DNA from: an uncultured Pelagibacteraceae bacterium
Lineage (GTDB): Bacteria > Pseudomonadota > Alphaproteobacteria > Pelagibacterales > Pelagibacteraceae
Length of the DNA: 64,000 nt
Direction: 5' to 3'
Assembly (NCBI GenBank): GCA_902539165.1
Contig: CACBHY010000004.1
Span: forward strand, 62,001-126,000
The translations under genes were made by a program, and so were the position numbers. The notes under the pieces are model-generated. The model was given only the letters and a program-made list of their open reading frames with translations, did no database searches and was not told the DNA's origin. Below are positions 35,772 through 53,205 of this stretch, one piece after another; within the stretch, counting starts at the first letter, position 1, and every line of letters starts with the position of its first letter.

Positions 35772-37250
35772 ATGACAATTAACTTTAAAGCACCAGAAAT
35801 AAAAGAACTACAACCACGACTATTAGTATTAGGAGTTGGAGGGGCAGGCGGCAATGCAATTAATGAGATGATTGAAAACAATCTACAAGGAGTAGAATTT
35901 ATTGCAGTTAATACTGATGCTCAGGATTTAAAGTTAAGTAAAGCAAAATCAAGAATTCAAATAGGATTAAATTTAACTAAAGGTTTAGGTGCAGGGGCAA
36001 AACTAGATATTGGTCAAGCTGCAGCTGATGAGTCTTTAAATGAAATTGTTAATACTTTACAAGGCGCAAACATGGTTTTTATCGCAGCAGGTATGGGTGG
36101 TGGAACGGGTACTGGTGCTGCTCATGTCATCGCCAGAGCTGCTAAAGAATTAAATATTTTAACTGTAGGTGTTGTAACACTTCCATTCTTATATGAAGGC
36201 CCCTCAAGAATGAGAAGAGCACAACAAGGTTTAGAAGAATTGAGAAAACATGTTGATACTATTATTGTTATACCAAATCAAAACTTGTTTAAAATAGCAA
36301 ACGAGCAAACAACGTTCGAAGAGTCTTTTAATCTTTCAAATAATGTATTAATGCACGGTGTTCAAAGCATTACTGATCTAATGGTTAGACCAGGCTTGAT
36401 CAATTTAGATTTTGCAGATGTTGAAACTGTTATGGCTTCAATGGGAAAAGCAATGATGGGCACAGGTGAAGCAGAAGGAGAAGACAGAGCCACTAAGGCA
36501 GCAGAGATGGCAATAAGTAACCCATTGATTGACGATTATACATTGAAAGGTGCTAAAGGATTATTAGTTAATATTACTGGTGGCAAAGACCTTAAGCTCT
36601 TTGAAGTTGATGAAGCGGTAAATAAAGTAAGAGCAGAAGTTGACCCTGAAGCTGAATTAATTATTGGTGCAATTACAGACTCTGAGCTTGATGGAAAAAT
36701 GAGAGTTTCAATTGTTGCAACATCTTTAGATGGTCAACAACCTGAAACTAAGTCAGTAATAAATATGGTACATCGAATACAAAATCGAAATCCCGGATAC
36801 TCTGACTTTTCTAATATGGGTCCATCAGCAGCTTTTAATTTTTCAAACCCAACATCAAATCCAATTTCACATGGCGCAAATGCTTTAAAGCTTGAAAATG
36901 AAATAGTTCAAGAGCAACAGAGTGAAACTACTGAAACAAATGTTACAAATGAGGAAGTTTTACAGAGTACAAATCTTGAGACAGAAAGTGTTGTTGAAGA
37001 TTCAACAGTTAATGAGATGGAGAAATCTTTTACACAAGAGGCTGTTGAGACACAGCATGAGACTAATTCAACAGACAGCGTTGAAAAAGATGCTTCAAAC
37101 GATCTAAAAGAATTTGGTGTAGACTCGGACTCTCCAGATTTATTTAGCTCTGAGTTAGAAAATTCAAGTCCAGAAGATTTATTATCCTCAGATGAAGAGG
37201 AAGAGGACGATCTTGAAATACCAGCATTCTTGAGAAGACAAAAAAATTAA
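35772..37250 (+). CDS. ftsZ: Cell division GTPase FtsZ
   Basis: Tubulin homologue that forms the Z ring; 492 residues. The GTPase core has [13 protein letters not shown], the GTP signature [22 protein letters not shown] and the T7 loop [11 protein letters not shown], all intact. From about residue 345 an acidic, Ser/Thr/Glu-rich linker follows, ending in the conserved C-terminal peptide [11 protein letters not shown], which binds FtsA and other partners. Elsewhere in alphaproteobacteria ftsZ follows ftsA; here it lies between mraZ and rsmH, 1 nt after mraZ. No second ftsZ is in the window. Confidence 0.98.
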
Positions 37251-40271: not shown

Positions 40272-43103
40272 ATGCGTTTAGGCGATCACTTTCAACAAAT
40301 AAAAAAAAAATATCATAACACTTTTTTTTCTGGGATTTGTTTTGATCATAGAAGAATTAAAGAAAATTATATTTTTTTTGCAATCAAAGGAAATAACTTA
40401 GATGGTAATAATTTTATTCCATCGGTAGTAAAAAAAGGTTGTAAAATAATTGTTACCGAGAAAAATTTTGATGAATTTGAAAATGGAGTTTTATTTATCA
40501 AGACAAAAAACATTAGAAAATTACTAGCACAAATTTCATTTAGTATCTTTAAAAAAAAACCAAATAACCTAATTGCTGTGACAGGCACAAATGGTAAATC
40601 TTCAGTTTCAGATTTTTATTATCAAATTTTAAACCTTAATAATAAAAAAGTTGCTTCTATAGGTACACTAGGAGTGAGATCAAATAACTTTAATTTAAAT
40701 TTGTACAATACAACTATTGATCCTATTTATTTAGGAAAAATTTTAAACAAATTAAAAAAAAGAAAAATAGAAAATGTAATTATGGAAGCATCAAGTCATG
40801 GGTTACACCAAAATAGATTAGATGGACTATTGTTTAATTCAGCAATATTTACTAATTTATCCCAAGATCATTTAGACTATCATAAAAATTTTAAAAATTA
40901 TCTTAATGCCAAACTTTATTTATTTCAAAATCTGATAAAAAAAGGTGGAATTGTTATAACTGATGACAAAATACCTGAATTTAAAAAAATTAAAAATATC
41001 AGTTTAAAAAAAGAATTAAAATTATTTACCCTTAAAAGTAATTTTCAAATTTTATCACATAATTATAAAAATGAAGCTCAAATATTAAAAATAAAATACG
41101 AAAACTCAATACATGAAATAAGAGTCAATCTTGTAGGAAAAATTCAATTAAAAAATATTTTGATGGCTGTCATAGCAGCTTCAAAAAGTAATTTAGACTT
41201 AAAAAAAATATTTGGTGTTATTCCCAGAATATCTTCAGTTGAAGGTAGATTTGAAAAAATAGGAACAATAAAAAATAAATCTTTAGTATTTCTTGATTAT
41301 GCTCATACACCAGATGCATTACAAACTTGTATTCTAAATATTAGAGAACAATTCACTGATAAACATATTTCAGTTCTCTTTGGATGTGGTGGTGACAGAG
41401 ATAAAGGTAAAAGATCAAAAATGGGCAAAATAGCTGATAAATATGCGGATAAAATTTATCTTACGGATGATAATCCAAGACATGAAAGACCTAAGAAAAT
41501 TAGAGAAGAGATTAAAAGGGGTATAAAAAAACGTCAAATTACTGAAATTTCTAATAGAAAAGAGGCAATTGTAAAAGCAATTAAAAACTTAAATACAGGA
41601 GATATTTTAATAGTTGCAGGCAAAGGCCATGAAAAAATTCAGCAAATTGGAAATAGAAAAGTTTTTTATTCAGATAGGCAAATAATCTTAAATTCAATTA
41701 AAAAAAAGAATTTTAACTTATCTAAAAATTTAAAATTAAACATTCTTAATGAAAGATTTGATCGAAATATTCTATCATCCAAATCTGTAATTAATAAAGT
41801 TAGCATAAATTCTAAGAGTGTTAAAAAAAATGATATTTTTTTTGCAATTAAAGGAAAAAAAAATGATGGTAATAAATTTGTTGAACAAGCAATTCAAAAA
41901 AAGGCATCAATAACTGTAGTAAATAAAATTCAAAACAAACTACCTAGAAATAAACAAGCAATCTCAATAAACCCTTTAGGTTTACTCACAGAAATTGCAA
42001 AAATATTTAGAAAAAATATTTCTACAAAAATTATTGCAATAACAGGCAGTTGTGGAAAAACTTCTTTAAAGGAATTGATGGGTAATACCTTAAATAAAAT
42101 ATCTAAAACAACTATTTCTCCAAAATCATATAATAATAAATATGGTGTTCCCTTAAGTCTTTTAAATATAAATCAAAATGATGATTATGGTGTTATTGAA
42201 GTTGGAATGGATAAAAAAGGAGAAATAGATCAACTCTCAAGAATTATTCAACCTGATATAAGTGTAATCACAAATATTAATTACGCACATGCAAAAAATT
42301 TTAAAAACATAAGACAAATAGCTTTAGCAAAAGCTGAAATAATCGATAATACTAAAGATAATGGCTGTGTAGTCCTTAACGCTGATGACGCTTTTTTTAG
42401 TTTACATAAGAAAATTGCACATAAAAAGAAGATCAAAGTATTATCGTTTGGGATAAACAACGACGCAGATATTGAACTACATAATATTATAAAATCCAAA
42501 AAAAAATACAAAATCTGTATTAAAATAAATAAAATTAAAAAGGATTTTATAGTTTTAAATGATTTCCAAAATTATATTTATAATATTTTAGCGGCGTTAA
42601 CTGTTAAAAGCGTTTTCTTTAATGTTTTAAAATTAGATAAAAATATATTTTTAAATTTTAGAACTCCAGAGGGAAGGGGTGATATCAAAAAAATTAAAGT
42701 GAATAAAAAAATGATAAACCTAATTGATGAAAGTTATAATTCAAACCCATTGTCTTTAAAGACTGCAATATTAAATTATGACAAGATCAAAACAAAGAAT
42801 TCCAAAAAGTATCTTATACTTGGTGATATGTTGGAGCTTGGTCATCATTCAAAAAAACTTCATGAGTCTATAGCACCAGTAATTAATAGAACGAATATTG
42901 ATAAAGTTTTTGTCAAAGGAAAGGAAATTTCCTCCTTATATAATAAAATTTCTAAACTTAAAAAAGGCTCAGTTTTAAAGAATAATTTGCAAATAAATGA
43001 TTTAATTGAAAATAACTTTGATAATGACGATTTCTTAATGATAAAGGCCTCAAATGCGACAGGTTTCAATAAGATTGTAAAAGAATTAAAAGGTTCAAAT
43101 TAA
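40272..43103 (+). CDS. murEF: MurE-MurF fusion (mDAP-adding and D-Ala-D-Ala-adding ligases)
   Basis: One 943-residue reading frame carrying two Mur ligases. Residues 1 to about 480 are MurE: ATP loop VTGTNGKSSVSDF (Lys109), EASSHGLHQNRLDG, DYAHTPDALQ, and the D-N-P-R motif at 400-403 that marks meso-diaminopimelate specificity. Residues from about 485 are MurF: a second substrate-binding start (ILSSKSVINKVSINSKS), ATP loop ITGSCGKTSLKEL (Lys596) and DESYNSNPLSL. No stop or frameshift separates them. Both active sites look intact. Fused MurE-MurF proteins occur in some other bacteria. It catalyses successive steps of the UDP-MurNAc-pentapeptide pathway. Confidence 0.95.
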   Translation: MRLGDHFQQIKKKYHNTFFSGICFDHRRIKENYIFFAIKGNNLDGNNFIPSVVKKGCKIIVTEKNFDEFENGVLFIKTKNIRKLLAQISFSIFKKKPNNLIAVTGTNGKSSVSDFYYQILNLNNKKVASIGTLGVRSNNFNLNLYNTTIDPIYLGKILNKLKKRKIENVIMEASSHGLHQNRLDGLLFNSAIFTNLSQDHLDYHKNFKNYLNAKLYLFQNLIKKGGIVITDDKIPEFKKIKNISLKKELKLFTLKSNFQILSHNYKNEAQILKIKYENSIHEIRVNLVGKIQLKNILMAVIAASKSNLDLKKIFGVIPRISSVEGRFEKIGTIKNKSLVFLDYAHTPDALQTCILNIREQFTDKHISVLFGCGGDRDKGKRSKMGKIADKYADKIYLTDDNPRHERPKKIREEIKRGIKKRQITEISNRKEAIVKAIKNLNTGDILIVAGKGHEKIQQIGNRKVFYSDRQIILNSIKKKNFNLSKNLKLNILNERFDRNILSSKSVINKVSINSKSVKKNDIFFAIKGKKNDGNKFVEQAIQKKASITVVNKIQNKLPRNKQAISINPLGLLTEIAKIFRKNISTKIIAITGSCGKTSLKELMGNTLNKISKTTISPKSYNNKYGVPLSLLNINQNDDYGVIEVGMDKKGEIDQLSRIIQPDISVITNINYAHAKNFKNIRQIALAKAEIIDNTKDNGCVVLNADDAFFSLHKKIAHKKKIKVLSFGINNDADIELHNIIKSKKKYKICIKINKIKKDFIVLNDFQNYIYNILAALTVKSVFFNVLKLDKNIFLNFRTPEGRGDIKKIKVNKKMINLIDESYNSNPLSLKTAILNYDKIKTKNSKKYLILGDMLELGHHSKKLHESIAPVINRTNIDKVFVKGKEISSLYNKISKLKKGSVLKNNLQINDLIENNFDNDDFLMIKASNATGFNKIVKELKGSN

Positions 43104-49050: not shown

Positions 49051-49955
49051 TGAGCGATTATTTAAAAGAATTATCTTCAGAATTTAGTGAAAATCTAAAA
49101 TTAAATTATGATTTGAAGAAAATGAATTGGTTTAATATTGGTGGTAAAACAAAAATTTATTATAAAGCGAAAAATTTAAAAGAATTAATCAAGTTTTTAA
49201 AAAAAATAAATAATAAAGAAAAGATTTTTATTTTAGGAGGGGGCTCAAACACATTAATTACAGACAATGATTATGATGGTGTTGTAATTAAATTATTAAA
49301 TAACTTTAATAATATTTCTTTATTATCAGAAGAAATAATAATTGCAGGTAGTGCTGTTAGTGATAAATCGCTATCAGAATTTGCCATTAATAATTGTTTG
49401 GGAGGTTTTGAATTTTTATCATGTATTCCAGGAACAGTTGGCGGTGGAATTAAAATGAATGCAGGATGCTTTGGTAGAGAATTTAAAGATATCCTTATTT
49501 CTATTCAAGCGGTAGATAAATCAGGCAAGGTTTTAACTATTCCAGCTAAAGATATAGATTTTAAATATAGAGAGAGTGGATTATCAGATGATCTTATATT
49601 TTTGAGCGCATCCTTTAAGGGACACAAAAAAGATAAAGTTCTAATTAAGAGCGAAGTTCAAAAATTAGTGAAAAAAAAAGAACAAGCTCAACCTACGAGA
49701 ATAAAAACTAGTGGAAGTACTTTTAAAAATCCTATCAACCAAACTGATAAAAAGGTGTGGCAGTTAATTAGAGAGTCAGTACCACTTGAAAAATCATTTG
49801 GAGATGCGTCAATTTCAGAGAAACATTGTAATTTTTTTGTAAACAAAGGTAATGCTAAATTTAAAGAAATGAGGGATTTGATTAAATTTGTATCTGATTG
49901 TGTTTTCAAAAAAACTGGGATCAAGCTTGAAACAGAAATTAAAATAATTGAATAA
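49050..49955 (+). CDS. murB: UDP-N-acetylenolpyruvoylglucosamine reductase
   Basis: FAD- and NADPH-dependent reductase giving UDP-MurNAc; 301 residues. Seen: NWFNIGGKTKIYYKAKNL, the FAD-binding GGGSNTLI, IPGTVGGGIKMNAGCFGREF, a KYRESGL segment with the active-site Tyr/Arg, SGSTFKNP with the catalytic Ser, and FVNKGNAKF. It starts at the last base of the murC stop (TAATG). Its last 8 nt overlap ddl if that gene starts at 49948. Confidence 0.96.
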   Translation: MSDYLKELSSEFSENLKLNYDLKKMNWFNIGGKTKIYYKAKNLKELIKFLKKINNKEKIFILGGGSNTLITDNDYDGVVIKLLNNFNNISLLSEEIIIAGSAVSDKSLSEFAINNCLGGFEFLSCIPGTVGGGIKMNAGCFGREFKDILISIQAVDKSGKVLTIPAKDIDFKYRESGLSDDLIFLSASFKGHKKDKVLIKSEVQKLVKKKEQAQPTRIKTSGSTFKNPINQTDKKVWQLIRESVPLEKSFGDASISEKHCNFFVNKGNAKFKEMRDLIKFVSDCVFKKTGIKLETEIKIIE

Positions 49956-50871
49956 ATTGAAAAAGAAAATTTTAATAATATCAGGGGGAATTTCAAAAGA
50001 GAGATTAATTAGTCTTGATACTGGATTGCAAGTTGCAAAAGAATTAAGAAAAAATTCATATAATGTTCAAATTTCTGAACCAAATAATAATCTACAAAAA
50101 ATTATTAATAAATTTAATCCTAATGTGATTTTTAATGCATTGCACGGACAGTTTGGAGAAGATGGTTATATTCAAACTATACTCGAAAGGTTTAATATCC
50201 CATATACCCATTCAGGTGTAATTGCCTCTGCAATAGCAATGGATAAAGAAATATCTAAAAAATTATTTATAAAATATAAAATAAATACCCCAAAATTCCT
50301 CACATACTCATTTGATAAAAAAAATTCACAACTAGTTAAAGAAATCAATAGCAAATTAAAATTTCCAGTTGTAGTGAAACCATTAAATGAGGGCTCGAGT
50401 GTAAACGTATATATCTGTAATAGAAAAAATATATTCAAAATTTTAAATTCTCTCAAAAATTACAAAAAGGTAATGATTGAAGAGTTTATAGGAGGTCGAG
50501 AAATACAAGTCGCAATCTTAGGAAATAGAAAATTAGGTGCGATAGAATTAAAACCTAAGAGAAAATTCTATGATTATCAAGCCAAGTATAATACTAACGC
50601 CAAAACACAACATATTATAAAAATCGGTTTACCAAAAAAAAAATTAAATCAAGTTTTAGAGACAGCTTATAAAGCACATAAAATAATTAAATGTAGAGGA
50701 GTTACGAGATCAGACTTTAAATATTTTAACGGTAAATTTTATTTGTTAGAGATAAATACTCAGCCCGGAATGACCAAACTGTCTTTAGTTCCTGAAATAG
50801 CTGCTCACCATGGTATGAGCTTCATAGAATTAATAGAGTGGATATTAGATGATGCATCAACAAAAAGGTAA
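49948..50871 (+). CDS. ddl: D-alanine-D-alanine ligase
   Basis: ATP-grasp ligase that makes the D-Ala-D-Ala dipeptide used by MurF; about 305 residues. Seen: ISGGISKERLISLDTG, ALHGQFGEDGYIQTILE, AMDKEISKKLF, VVKPLNEGSSVNVYI, and LEINTQPGMTKLSLVPEIA. There is no ATG before the conserved N-terminus; TTG codons at 49948 and 49957 are the only reasonable starts, the second being just after the murB stop. The end overlaps ftsQ by 23 nt. Confidence 0.94.
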   Translation: MNKLKKKILIISGGISKERLISLDTGLQVAKELRKNSYNVQISEPNNNLQKIINKFNPNVIFNALHGQFGEDGYIQTILERFNIPYTHSGVIASAIAMDKEISKKLFIKYKINTPKFLTYSFDKKNSQLVKEINSKLKFPVVVKPLNEGSSVNVYICNRKNIFKILNSLKNYKKVMIEEFIGGREIQVAILGNRKLGAIELKPKRKFYDYQAKYNTNAKTQHIIKIGLPKKKLNQVLETAYKAHKIIKCRGVTRSDFKYFNGKFYLLEINTQPGMTKLSLVPEIAAHHGMSFIELIEWILDDASTKR

Positions 50872-51523
50872 AAAAATTTTAATTTATTTCTTTATATTTT
50901 TAATAGTGGGATCAATTAATAACACTGCATTAACAAAAATCAAATTTGAAACAATTAAAAGTATTCAAATCTCAGGATTAAATCAAAAACAAAATATTAG
51001 TCTTTTGGAAAGTATTAAAGAACTAGACTTAAAAAATATTTTTTTTCTTAATGGAAAAGAAATTTCTAAAATAATAAGCTCTAATAGTTTAGTTGAAAAT
51101 TATGAAATATTTAAAAAATATCCATATGCCCTAGATATCAAAATTGAAAGAACTGACTTTTTAGCAAAAATAAATAATAACGGAAAAATATTTCTTATAG
51201 GAAAAAATGGAAAATTATCTGATTTAAAATTCTCAGATAAAGAACTACCTTTTATATTTGGCAAACCAAGGATAGATGAATTTATAAAATTTACTAATAT
51301 AATTGAGGAATCCAAGCTCTCACTTAATCAAGTTAAAAATCTATATTTTTTTCCATCAAAAAGATGGGACTTGAAACTTAAGAATAATTTAATATTAAAA
51401 TTATCAAAGAAGCATACTAAACTTTCTTTAGACCAGGCTTTGGAAATTATAAATGACGATAATTTTAATGATATTAAAGTAGTTGATGCAAGAATTAAAA
51501 ATCAAATCATTTTGAATGACTGA
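50849..51523 (+). CDS. ftsQ: Cell division protein FtsQ
   Basis: Bitopic division protein of 224 residues: a short basic N-terminus, a membrane segment at about 10-26, and a periplasmic POTRA-type domain (FETIKSIQISGLNQKQNISLLESI), followed by a beta-domain part (PYALDIKIERTDFLAKINNNGKIFLIGKNGKL). That pattern and the ddl-ftsQ-ftsA order support the name, though identity is low. The ATG at 50849 is followed by a second at 50852. It overlaps the reduced ftsA gene by 8 nt. Confidence 0.87.
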   Translation: MMHQQKGKKILIYFFIFLIVGSINNTALTKIKFETIKSIQISGLNQKQNISLLESIKELDLKNIFFLNGKEISKIISSNSLVENYEIFKKYPYALDIKIERTDFLAKINNNGKIFLIGKNGKLSDLKFSDKELPFIFGKPRIDEFIKFTNIIEESKLSLNQVKNLYFFPSKRWDLKLKNNLILKLSKKHTKLSLDQALEIINDDNFNDIKVVDARIKNQIILND

Positions 51524-52220
51524 TAAATTAAGTTTTGAAACATATTTAAGTCTTTCTCATAAAAAATTTGAGATTTATTTATTAGATAAAAAAAATTTAA
51601 AGAATATTTATATGGAAGAAGTTTATGTAGAAAATGGTTCAGATTTATTTGATTACAAATTACTAAATAGCTTTCTTGATAAAAATATTTTTAAAATTGA
51701 AAAATTAATTGGTAAATTTTTAAGAGGTATTGTCGTAGTAATAGAAAATGACCAAACTTTAAATTGTTCAATTGGAATAAAGAAAAAAAGTTATGGTGAA
51801 AAAATCACTAAACATTATTTAGAAAGTTCACTAACTGAGCTTAAAGATTTGTTTAAAGAAAATTATCATAATAGAAAAATCATGCATTTTATAGTAAATA
51901 GATGTTTAATAGATGGAATTAATTATTCATCATTTGACAAAGAAATTGATGGTGAGGATATGTATATTGAAGTAATTTTTATTTCTGTTTCAAATATTTT
52001 AATTAAAGAAGTCAGTAATGAATTAGAAAAATATCAAATAAAAATAGATCGTTTATTTGAAAAGAAATATATTAAAAATCTTTTTGAGGGAGAAGATTTA
52101 GATCTATCCTTAATTGCTTTTAAAGTACAAAGCGGTCACAACCACAATGAAATTACTTTAGTTCCAAAAAACCTTAAAAAGACTGGCTTTTTTGAGAAAT
52201 TTTTTCAACTATTTAGTTAA
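51516..52220 (+). CDS. ftsA: Reduced FtsA-like protein: subdomains 1A/1C plus membrane helix, ATPase half missing
   Basis: Lies in the ftsA slot after ftsQ (8-nt overlap) but has 234 residues, against about 400-440 for FtsA. Residues 1-92 resemble subdomain 1A, but the phosphate-1 motif DIGTSK is gone (SLSHKKFEIYLLD). Residues 93-180 match subdomain 1C: MHFIVNRCLIDG, then an acidic stretch, IEVIFISVSN and a helix ending EKYQIKIDRLF. Domain 2 and the other nucleotide loops are absent. The C-terminus, GFFEKFFQLFS (224-234), is an amphipathic helix like the FtsA membrane anchor. I infer a membrane-bound, probably non-ATP-binding divisome linker. No remnant of domain 2 lies downstream. Confidence 0.78.
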   Translation: MTDKLSFETYLSLSHKKFEIYLLDKKNLKNIYMEEVYVENGSDLFDYKLLNSFLDKNIFKIEKLIGKFLRGIVVVIENDQTLNCSIGIKKKSYGEKITKHYLESSLTELKDLFKENYHNRKIMHFIVNRCLIDGINYSSFDKEIDGEDMYIEVIFISVSNILIKEVSNELEKYQIKIDRLFEKKYIKNLFEGEDLDLSLIAFKVQSGHNHNEITLVPKNLKKTGFFEKFFQLFS

Positions 52221-52284
52221 TATAGTCATATCTGGTAATATTTGTTGTTTTTAATTAGTTAATTTAACAATTTAAAAACTTAAT

Positions 52285-53205
52285 ATGTCTTACTTAAATC
52301 AAAAAACGCTTAAAAATTCAATTACATTTAGTGGCGTAGGTTTGCACACAGGTTTAGATGTGAAAGTATGCATCAAACCCTCATCTCCCAACACTGGGAT
52401 AATTTTTAAGAGAATTGATTTACAAAAGAATAATATTGTTCATCCAAATTTTTTGAATGTAAGTAGCACTTCGTTAAATACAACCATTGCAAATGAATAC
52501 GGTGTTAAAGTTTCAACCATTGAACATTTAATGGGAGCTTTGTTTGGTTTAGGAATTGACAATGCCTTAATAGAAATAGACAACGAGGAAGTTCCAATTC
52601 TAGATGGCTCTGCTAAGGAATTCATTGAAAAAATTATCCCTGCAGGATTTGAAGTAAGTGAAGCTCCAATTAAAATTATTAAAATTAATAAAAAAATTGA
52701 ATTTAACGACAGAAATAGATTAATTTCTATTGAACCCTCAAAATTAAGTTTAGATATAGAATTTAAATTAGACTATGAAAATCCAGTTATAGGAAAACAA
52801 AAAAATAAAATTAGTGTTTATCAAGATAATTTAGAAGATATTTTTAATTCACGAACTTTTTGCTTATACGAAGACATTGAGGCAATTAAAAAAGTAGGAT
52901 TAGCCAAAGGTGGTAGTTTAGAAAATGCAATAGTTGTTAAGAAAGACAAAATTTTAAATTCAGATGGTTTGAGAAATCATAAAGAATTTGTTAATCACAA
53001 AATACTTGACTGTATTGGAGACTTATATACTTCAGGATACAGAATTATTGGAAGTGTAAAATGTTCAAAGGGAGGACATTTTTTAACTAATGAACTTTTG
53101 AAAAAAGTATTTAAAAATAGTGAAAATTTTTCTATAATTGAAATACAGGAAAGAAATTTACCACACACTTTAATCAATAGAAGTCTTTTAAAATCTATAG
53201 CATAG
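52285..53205 (+). CDS. lpxC: UDP-3-O-acyl-N-acetylglucosamine deacetylase
   Basis: Zinc deacetylase, the committed step of lipid A synthesis; 306 residues. Seen: TLKNSITFSGVGLHTG, STIEHLMGALFGLGIDNA with the first Zn His, PILDGSAKEF, SRTFCLYEDIEAIKK, LRNHKEFVNHKILDCIGDLY with the other Zn ligands (HxxxD), and GGHFLTNELLKK with the catalytic His. It follows the reduced ftsA by 64 nt; ftsZ, which normally separates them, is absent here. It implies an LPS-bearing outer membrane. Confidence 0.96.
   Translation: MSYLNQKTLKNSITFSGVGLHTGLDVKVCIKPSSPNTGIIFKRIDLQKNNIVHPNFLNVSSTSLNTTIANEYGVKVSTIEHLMGALFGLGIDNALIEIDNEEVPILDGSAKEFIEKIIPAGFEVSEAPIKIIKINKKIEFNDRNRLISIEPSKLSLDIEFKLDYENPVIGKQKNKISVYQDNLEDIFNSRTFCLYEDIEAIKKVGLAKGGSLENAIVVKKDKILNSDGLRNHKEFVNHKILDCIGDLYTSGYRIIGSVKCSKGGHFLTNELLKKVFKNSENFSIIEIQERNLPHTLINRSLLKSIA

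Follow-up and report, generated by a model that had tools for sequence, protein, structure and literature searches.

A SAR11 FtsA without its ATPase half: anatomy, distribution and a possible role as a membrane adaptor

The purpose of FtsA's ATP cycle and filaments is a long-standing question, and it is raised again by a small gene that occupies the ftsA position in a marine bacterium. The DNA analysed here, called the window throughout, is a stretch of 64,000 nucleotides from a SAR11 organism whose closest named records are Pelagibacterales and Pelagibacteraceae genomes with no more than 83% identity. Its assembly (G000) comprises 1.21 Mb in 26 contigs and is 93% complete. A preliminary description, made from the letters of the window alone, had placed in the ftsA slot an open reading frame (ORF) of 234 residues with nothing coding left behind it. 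An ORF scan and the Pfam matches of the neighbouring genes confirmed its coordinates, strand, length and position as well as the empty gap downstream:

51516-52220, forward strand: short ftsA (domain 1 plus membrane helix), 234 residues; ATG at 51516, stop at 52218-52220
50849-51523, forward strand: ftsQ (Pfam POTRA_1 and FtsQ_DivIB_C), adjoining the short ftsA on its 5' side
52285-53205, forward strand: lpxC (Pfam), the first gene 3' of the short ftsA

The first 8 bases of the short gene are shared with the end of ftsQ, and 64 bases without leftover coding sequence lie between its stop and lpxC, giving the order ftsQ-ftsA-lpxC within the dcw cluster. With E values up to 10 the protein has no Pfam match, and its only match in NCBIfam is unrelated and at chance level (E 0.12); neither PF02491 nor PF14450, the two HMMs that had been suggested as a check, recognises it. 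We therefore asked whether this ORF is FtsA, what it has lost, how the loss is distributed and what such a protein could do.

Descent from FtsA and the missing domain 2

An AlphaFold2 model of the window protein (mean pLDDT 87.4, pTM 0.81) was compared with the PDB by Foldseek, where the first 19 matches were FtsA chains (best E 4.5e-12, TMq 0.62) followed by PilM. VIA-align gave Z scores of 12.1-14.8 for FtsA, 11.1 for PilM and 10.6-10.8 for GspL/EpsL, in a comparison that covers the families listed by VIA. The fold is thus that of FtsA 1A/1C, and the dissimilar structure that had been named beforehand as an argument against FtsA did not appear. At the level of profiles, hhalign matched the short forms (A1, 52 sequences) to the long forms (A4, 35 sequences) over 212 columns with a probability of 99.8 and an E value of 7.7e-28, and the short-form profile also matched residues 53-195 of E. 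coli FtsA (E 1.6e-4). Given these matches, the structural rankings, the overlap with ftsQ and the neighbouring ftsQ and lpxC, ORF 51516-52220 is ftsA by descent and shares its ancestry with the full-length FtsA of related genomes. A closer kinship to PilM or GspL was considered and rejected, FtsA coming first by sequence, Foldseek and VIA.

Within the gene the following parts can be assigned:

51534-51743, forward strand: residues 7-76, N-terminal part of subdomain 1A (three strands, a helix and a strand), from the secondary structure of the model, boundaries approximate
51759-52082, forward strand: residues 82-189, SHS2-like subdomain 1C with the 1A strand and helix that come after it, from structure and profile, boundaries approximate
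52083-52103, forward strand: junction at which full-length relatives hold domain 2 (2A and 2B, residues ~190-337 of the long relative from G025), from alignment and comparison of short and long models
52104-52130, forward strand: residues 197-205, final helix of 1A, whose counterpart in the long relative is helix 338-349, from alignment and models
52185-52217, forward strand: C-terminal amphipathic helix GFFEKFFQLFS, likely membrane targeting sequence, kept in short and long forms

Structure and profile both place an SHS2-type 1C inserted in 1A. The claim that the 1C pattern is recognisable thus stands for the profile (through E. coli FtsA 53-195) and for the structure, but fails for the Pfam and NCBIfam models, PF02491 among them. 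The C-terminal helix had likewise been described as amphipathic. It is present and ranks with the best conserved parts of the family, but its amphipathicity is moderate: the hydrophobic moment is 0.54, a value reached in 140 of 5000 shuffles, and the 95th percentile for the other stretches of 11 residues is 0.61. By its conservation it matches the membrane helix of FtsA, and membrane binding is a prediction from its sequence.

The extent of the loss became apparent from relatives. A first search of 61 genomes returned two kinds, with frames of 231-237 and 377-397 residues, besides fragments and two chance matches, L028 and L029, which were omitted (L028 reads by eye as a succinyl-CoA ligase). 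For several of the 377-397 residue relatives the match was split in two, the break lying near query residue 190-205. When aligned, the long relatives (368-410 residues) carry a single extra block of about 140 residues at the short-form junction, and both forms end in an identical arrangement of linker and helix. All ten long relatives tested against the Pfam FtsA models scored above cut-off, and a model of the long relative from G025 (pLDDT 85.1) had FtsA as its top Foldseek match. The elements of this model match those of the short form almost one for one up to residue ~189; it then continues with eleven more strands and helices (about 190-337) before helix 338-349, the counterpart of short-form helix 197-205. 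As judged from these alignments and models, the whole of 2A and 2B is gone and the remainder of domain 1 has been joined up.

The phosphate-1 position of the window protein reads LSLSHKKF in place of [DE]xGS. The motif [DE]xG is found in 32 of 35 full-length proteins and in none of 35 short ones; within one alignment the figures are 31/31 long and 0/35 short, the frameshifted L127 and the distant long forms L126, L226, L227 and L220 having been omitted, of which L220 has the motif. Another alignment, which includes L126, shows the D in 15 of 16 long rows and the G in all 16. The three exceptions, L126, L226 and L227, are full-length FtsAs of the other family of the order (with QVG, DIR and QID), so that loss of phosphate-1 alone is not a mark of the deletion; to go by these residues, the ATP site may be weakened in them while domain 2 is kept. 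The short form, with neither a PF14450 match nor [DE]xG, has neither domain 2 nor the actin-type ATP motifs of FtsA. Comparison with relatives thus supports the earlier statement that phosphate-1 and all of domain 2 are missing, and together with structure and profiles it supports the wider picture of an FtsA descendant that kept 1A/1C and the membrane helix and lacks its ATPase half.

The short gene is intact in most places where it is found. ORFs of the same form (220-244 residues) are present in 65 of 80 relatives' loci, with lengths of 230-236 residues in 62 of these 65, and the remaining 15 loci are cut by contig ends. For the 60 closest of 78 pairs dN/dS lies between 0.05 and 0.33 (0.218 for the window and L033), and values around 0.2 mean that the gene is not decaying. 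Fast divergence might nonetheless suggest a functionless remnant of ftsA, since between the window and L146 the identity is 65% for FtsA and 90-96% for FtsZ, FtsI and MurC, and in the single-contig genome G012 (locus L014/L127) the frame is broken at a T7A8 run. Set against the dN/dS values, the near-constant length, the conserved fold and helix, the overlap with ftsQ and the presence of the gene across many genomes of the genus, we consider such decay very improbable. The frameshift in G012 could be a sequencing error, a pseudogene or slippage.

An assembly or frameshift artefact, or a gene split in two, might be suspected in an assembly of 26 contigs and 93% completeness, yet the same form occurs in many assemblies, including the single-contig genomes G321, G408, G424 and G106, and PF14450 detects no second domain 2 in single-contig genomes; we regard this explanation as practically negligible. 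In the window's own assembly PF14450 finds MreB only and PF02491 finds nothing. No FtsA-type domain 2 was found by PF14450 in five single-contig short-form genomes (G012 and the four above), its matches there being frames of 345-359 residues, which by their size we take for MreB, and a weak match of ~650 residues in G424, presumably DnaK. As a control, the same model does find FtsA in three single-contig long-form genomes (G427, G428 and G423). A full-length ftsA elsewhere, which the preliminary description had itself named as decisive against its reading, was therefore found neither in the 93% complete assembly nor in these five genomes. We rejected it together with a split gene and a pseudogene, on the PF14450 and PF02491 searches, dN/dS and length.

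Distribution and history of the short form

In a sample of 399 genomes from the window's genus 278 match a mixed profile and 121 do not, and in a sample of the order 211 of 247 genomes match the long-form profile, leaving 36 without a match. The order sample contains 143 matched genomes of the window's genus, which a hand count divides into 43 full length (42 open frames of 370-401 residues and one fragment of the C-terminal half) and 100 with domain 1 only or fragments; the genus is thus mixed. Outside it the listed frames are of about 396-420 residues, and two shorter ones (G443 and G435) are cut by contig ends. The short form is the commoner state among the sampled genomes of this large SAR11 genus, and the check on conservation across SAR11 genomes that had been suggested finds it widespread there, well beyond one genome.

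When 29 genomes were searched again seven of them (G131, G192, G514, G520, G102, G104 and G544; 88-92% complete) had no match even at E 10 and several others only pieces at contig ends. Some of these misses are likely assembly gaps, because the short gene has a GC content of about 20% (25% in its surroundings) and many partial matches break off where a contig ends; sequencing dropout at ftsA caused by the ~20% GC is likely. Contig ends inside ftsA are unusually frequent, affecting 15 of the 80 loci (L056, L090, L094-L096, L101, L103, L104 and L106-L112), and further ones were seen at L174, L175, L177-L185.

Did the short form arise once? The organism tree, built from 12 further genes of the cluster, has the short state in scattered places. 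For 69 genomes it needs at least four changes, and the plain reading is of four losses because the distant relatives are long. The window's clade (22 short rows) stands beside six long forms; L212, L217 and L224 make up a second short group; L147, L198-L200 and L202 group with the long L121; and L143, L134, L136 and L144 stand beside the long L209-L211. A 38-row concatenate of the same genes (24 short and 14 long) rejects a single clade of short-form genomes with p-AU 2.3e-38. The trees of these 12 genes were made by quick methods or FastTree and came with long-branch warnings; L135 and L213 were dropped from the 69-genome tree for having too few columns, and L135, L151 and L152 from the concatenate. 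The FtsA domain-1 alignments, in contrast, do not reject one short clade (p-AU 0.311 and 0.308), and parsimony counts 2 changes on the FtsA tree (from which the same five rows were omitted as from the motif count) versus 3 or 4 on the 12-gene trees.

The rejection by the 12 genes bears on the organisms and not on the ftsA gene, because ddl-ftsQ-ftsA-lpxC may recombine. In the sister pairs L115/L123 and L140/L141 this stretch (49948-53205 in the window) is far more divergent than the genes preceding it, with 47-50% identity for FtsA and FtsQ versus 94-98% for MurC; in L115/L123 the values are 49% for FtsA, 47% for FtsQ and 72% for LpxC versus 98% for MurC and 95% for FtsZ. From such comparisons the stretch looks to be either recombining or evolving very fast.

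A single deletion whose short allele then passed from one SAR11 lineage to another by homologous recombination would be compatible with the FtsA alignments and with the divergence seen in the sister pairs. It would also account for the L143 group, which sits with long-form genomes on the 12-gene tree and with short forms on the FtsA tree. The L147 group speaks against it: in the FtsA tree its five short forms share a group of 12 rows (89/97) with seven long forms, it groups with the long L121 on the 12-gene tree as well, and L147 is 54% identical to L121, whereas no short form of the set exceeds 52%. The seven long forms, of ~370 residues, keep phosphate-1 and their domain 2 forms a clade of its own (97/99), so that there is no sign of their having regained domain 2. 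We rate a single spreading deletion at a little below an even chance. Either there were several deletions or one was spread by recombination, and the FtsA sequences alone cannot decide between the two.

FtsZ, partners and a possible role

The window also holds ftsZ, outside its usual neighbourhood according to the preliminary description:

35772-37250, forward strand: ftsZ, between mraZ and rsmH
37212-37247, forward strand: FtsZ C-terminal peptide (12 residues), the canonical ligand of FtsA subdomain 2B, intact

A relocated ftsZ had been tied to the reduced FtsA as the sign of a rewired divisome. The order mraZ-ftsZ-rsmH, however, occurs in 35 of 40 loci in one set and 26 of 30 in another, with both states of FtsA and in other genera too; seven of the nine loci without the full order are cut by the end of a contig or of the fetched stretch. 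In the other family of the order L227 shows mraZ-ftsZ-rsmH and L126 shows ftsZ-rsmH at a contig end. The position of ftsZ is therefore older than the deletion and independent of it, being common to genomes with full-length FtsA, and the proposed link between the two falls. In the remaining two of the nine, L135 and L213, both with the short form, genes that read by eye as transhydrogenase subunits and a transaldolase-like protein interrupt the dcw cluster immediately ahead of murB, so that ftsZ is out of view there.

What the deletion may mean for function can be gauged from studied FtsAs. In the available passages of PMC7613929 the IA-IC cleft of FtsA binds the tail of FtsN in the way that PilM binds PilN, and IIA-IIB make the longitudinal contact. 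Those of PMC4281207 have 1C recruiting FtsQ and FtsN and 2B holding FtsZ, with binding abolished on deletion of 2B. With 2B absent, the tie between FtsZ and the membrane that the preliminary description had ascribed to FtsA cannot be assumed for the short form on the strength of those passages. Its suggestion of a stripped adaptor, on the other hand, remains the best reading.

Taken together we think it probable that the loss of domain 2 has turned FtsA into an ATP-free, non-polymerising membrane adaptor with a 1A-1C cleft. Comparison with the long relatives shows that an in-frame deletion of about 140 codons removed 2A and 2B and thereby fused the first 1A/1C half to what follows domain 2 in the long form: the final helix of 1A, the linker and the membrane helix. 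By analogy with solved FtsAs, the ATP site would have been lost with 2A and the decayed phosphate-1, and the longitudinal filament contact and the known pocket for the FtsZ tail with 2A/2B. The remainder is a single folded domain 1 on a membrane helix, which would act without nucleotide and without polymerising; by its anatomy, which lacks both the site and the contact, it should not form ATP-dependent filaments. The cleft could then hold the cytoplasmic tail of a bitopic division protein, so as to concentrate or gate the septal synthase at midcell, while FtsZ would depend on another protein or on a site newly gained by domain 1. An adaptor for a partner's tail is our best guess because the cleft and the membrane helix have been kept.

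Several observations count against the adaptor reading. The FtsQ tail is by eye only about nine residues long, the FtsZ tail is intact, as would be expected if FtsA still held it, and the searches for SepF and FtsX_ECD described below gave no known alternative anchor. As to FtsN, a SPOR search of 13 genomes gave 19 matches in 12 of them; none was recognised as FtsN among the 11 that were read (L153-L163; 249-279 residues with a lipoprotein-like N-terminus), which may be RlpA-like, the other eight being weaker (E about 0.1 or more).

Could the short FtsA still tether the Z ring, with domain 1 offering the C-terminal peptide of FtsZ a new place to bind, for instance on the surface uncovered by the loss of 2A, and with no need of ATP or filaments? 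The helix, among the best conserved parts of the protein, would hold the membrane, and all 62 FtsZ sequences recovered, from 70 loci with either form of FtsA, have the tail EIPAFLRRQ intact. Neither SepF nor FtsX_ECD had a match over cut-off in nine genomes (the FtsX_ECD model also misses its Caulobacter control), so no known alternative anchor was found that could have replaced FtsA. The FtsZ tail is also a hub for other proteins besides FtsA, however, so that its conservation need not be due to FtsA, and ZapA is present in 9/9 genomes. In studied FtsAs, moreover, the site for FtsZ lies on 2B and its deletion abolishes binding, in the available passages of PMC4281207. We hold a tether of this kind to be rather unlikely and prefer the adaptor for a partner's tail.

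The adaptor can be set beside known systems. With FtsA it shares the gene position, the 1A/1C fold, the last 1A helix, the C-terminal amphipathic helix and its relatedness to full-length SAR11 FtsA; it differs in having neither 2A/2B nor phosphate-1 nor a match to the Pfam FtsA models, and consequently no ATP site, no known FtsZ site and no longitudinal contact. PilM resembles it in having a domain 1 with an SHS2-type 1C (VIA Z 11.1), but keeps domain 2, binds nucleotide according to PDB titles and serves the pilus and not division; it is also not known to have a membrane helix. PilM too is an adaptor to the tail of a bitopic protein, in the available passages of PMC7613929. The cytoplasmic domain of GspL/EpsL is an actin-like adaptor of similar size (chains of 224-238 residues), but it matches less well than FtsA (VIA Z 10.6-10.8), is joined to a transmembrane protein and belongs to the type II secretion machine. 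GspL/EpsL are said to lack nucleotide binding. SepF and ZipA would be of the same functional type if the short FtsA tethered FtsZ without ATP; their folds are unrelated to that of FtsA, and the window protein, which has no Pfam match at E<=10, does not match PF04472 of SepF.

The short FtsA is thus ordinary in its descent and unusual in what is missing: its anatomy follows directly from the comparisons above, while the mechanism is our interpretation. We see an even chance that SAR11 bacteria have repeatedly, or by trading alleles, made their division actin into an ATP-free membrane adaptor that forms no filaments. FtsA's ATPase, polymerisation and known FtsZ pocket would then be dispensable for division, and the FtsZ tail would be gripped either by an anchor still to be discovered or by domain 1 at a new site. 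If so, the ATPase and polymerisation of FtsA can be done without in an abundant group of marine bacteria. With short and full-length forms in one genus, these genomes offer a natural comparison: in the short ones the ATPase half is gone, but domain 1 and the membrane helix have been kept, and so has the FtsZ tail. The short form separates the jobs of FtsA, namely membrane anchoring, binding of a partner's tail, binding of FtsZ and polymerisation, and predicts that at least polymerisation is not needed. It also follows that SAR11 division cannot be modelled on E. coli FtsA, which points to a missing or new anchor for FtsZ. We found no paper on SAR11 FtsA in open PMC, the scope of our search (subscription journals and preprints lying outside it), and the available passages of PMC11994032 and PMC2877005 do not discuss it.

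Two further features of the cluster were seen. In short- and long-form genomes alike, a second motif is conserved in the linker of FtsZ, upstream of its C-terminal peptide; it has 15 positions, in some cases is of about the form GLENFxxxxxxPELF, and is a possible binding site. At the usual place of separate murE and murF genes the window has an ORF of 943 residues (40272-43103), kept in relatives, which from its position and size is probably a MurE-MurF fusion.
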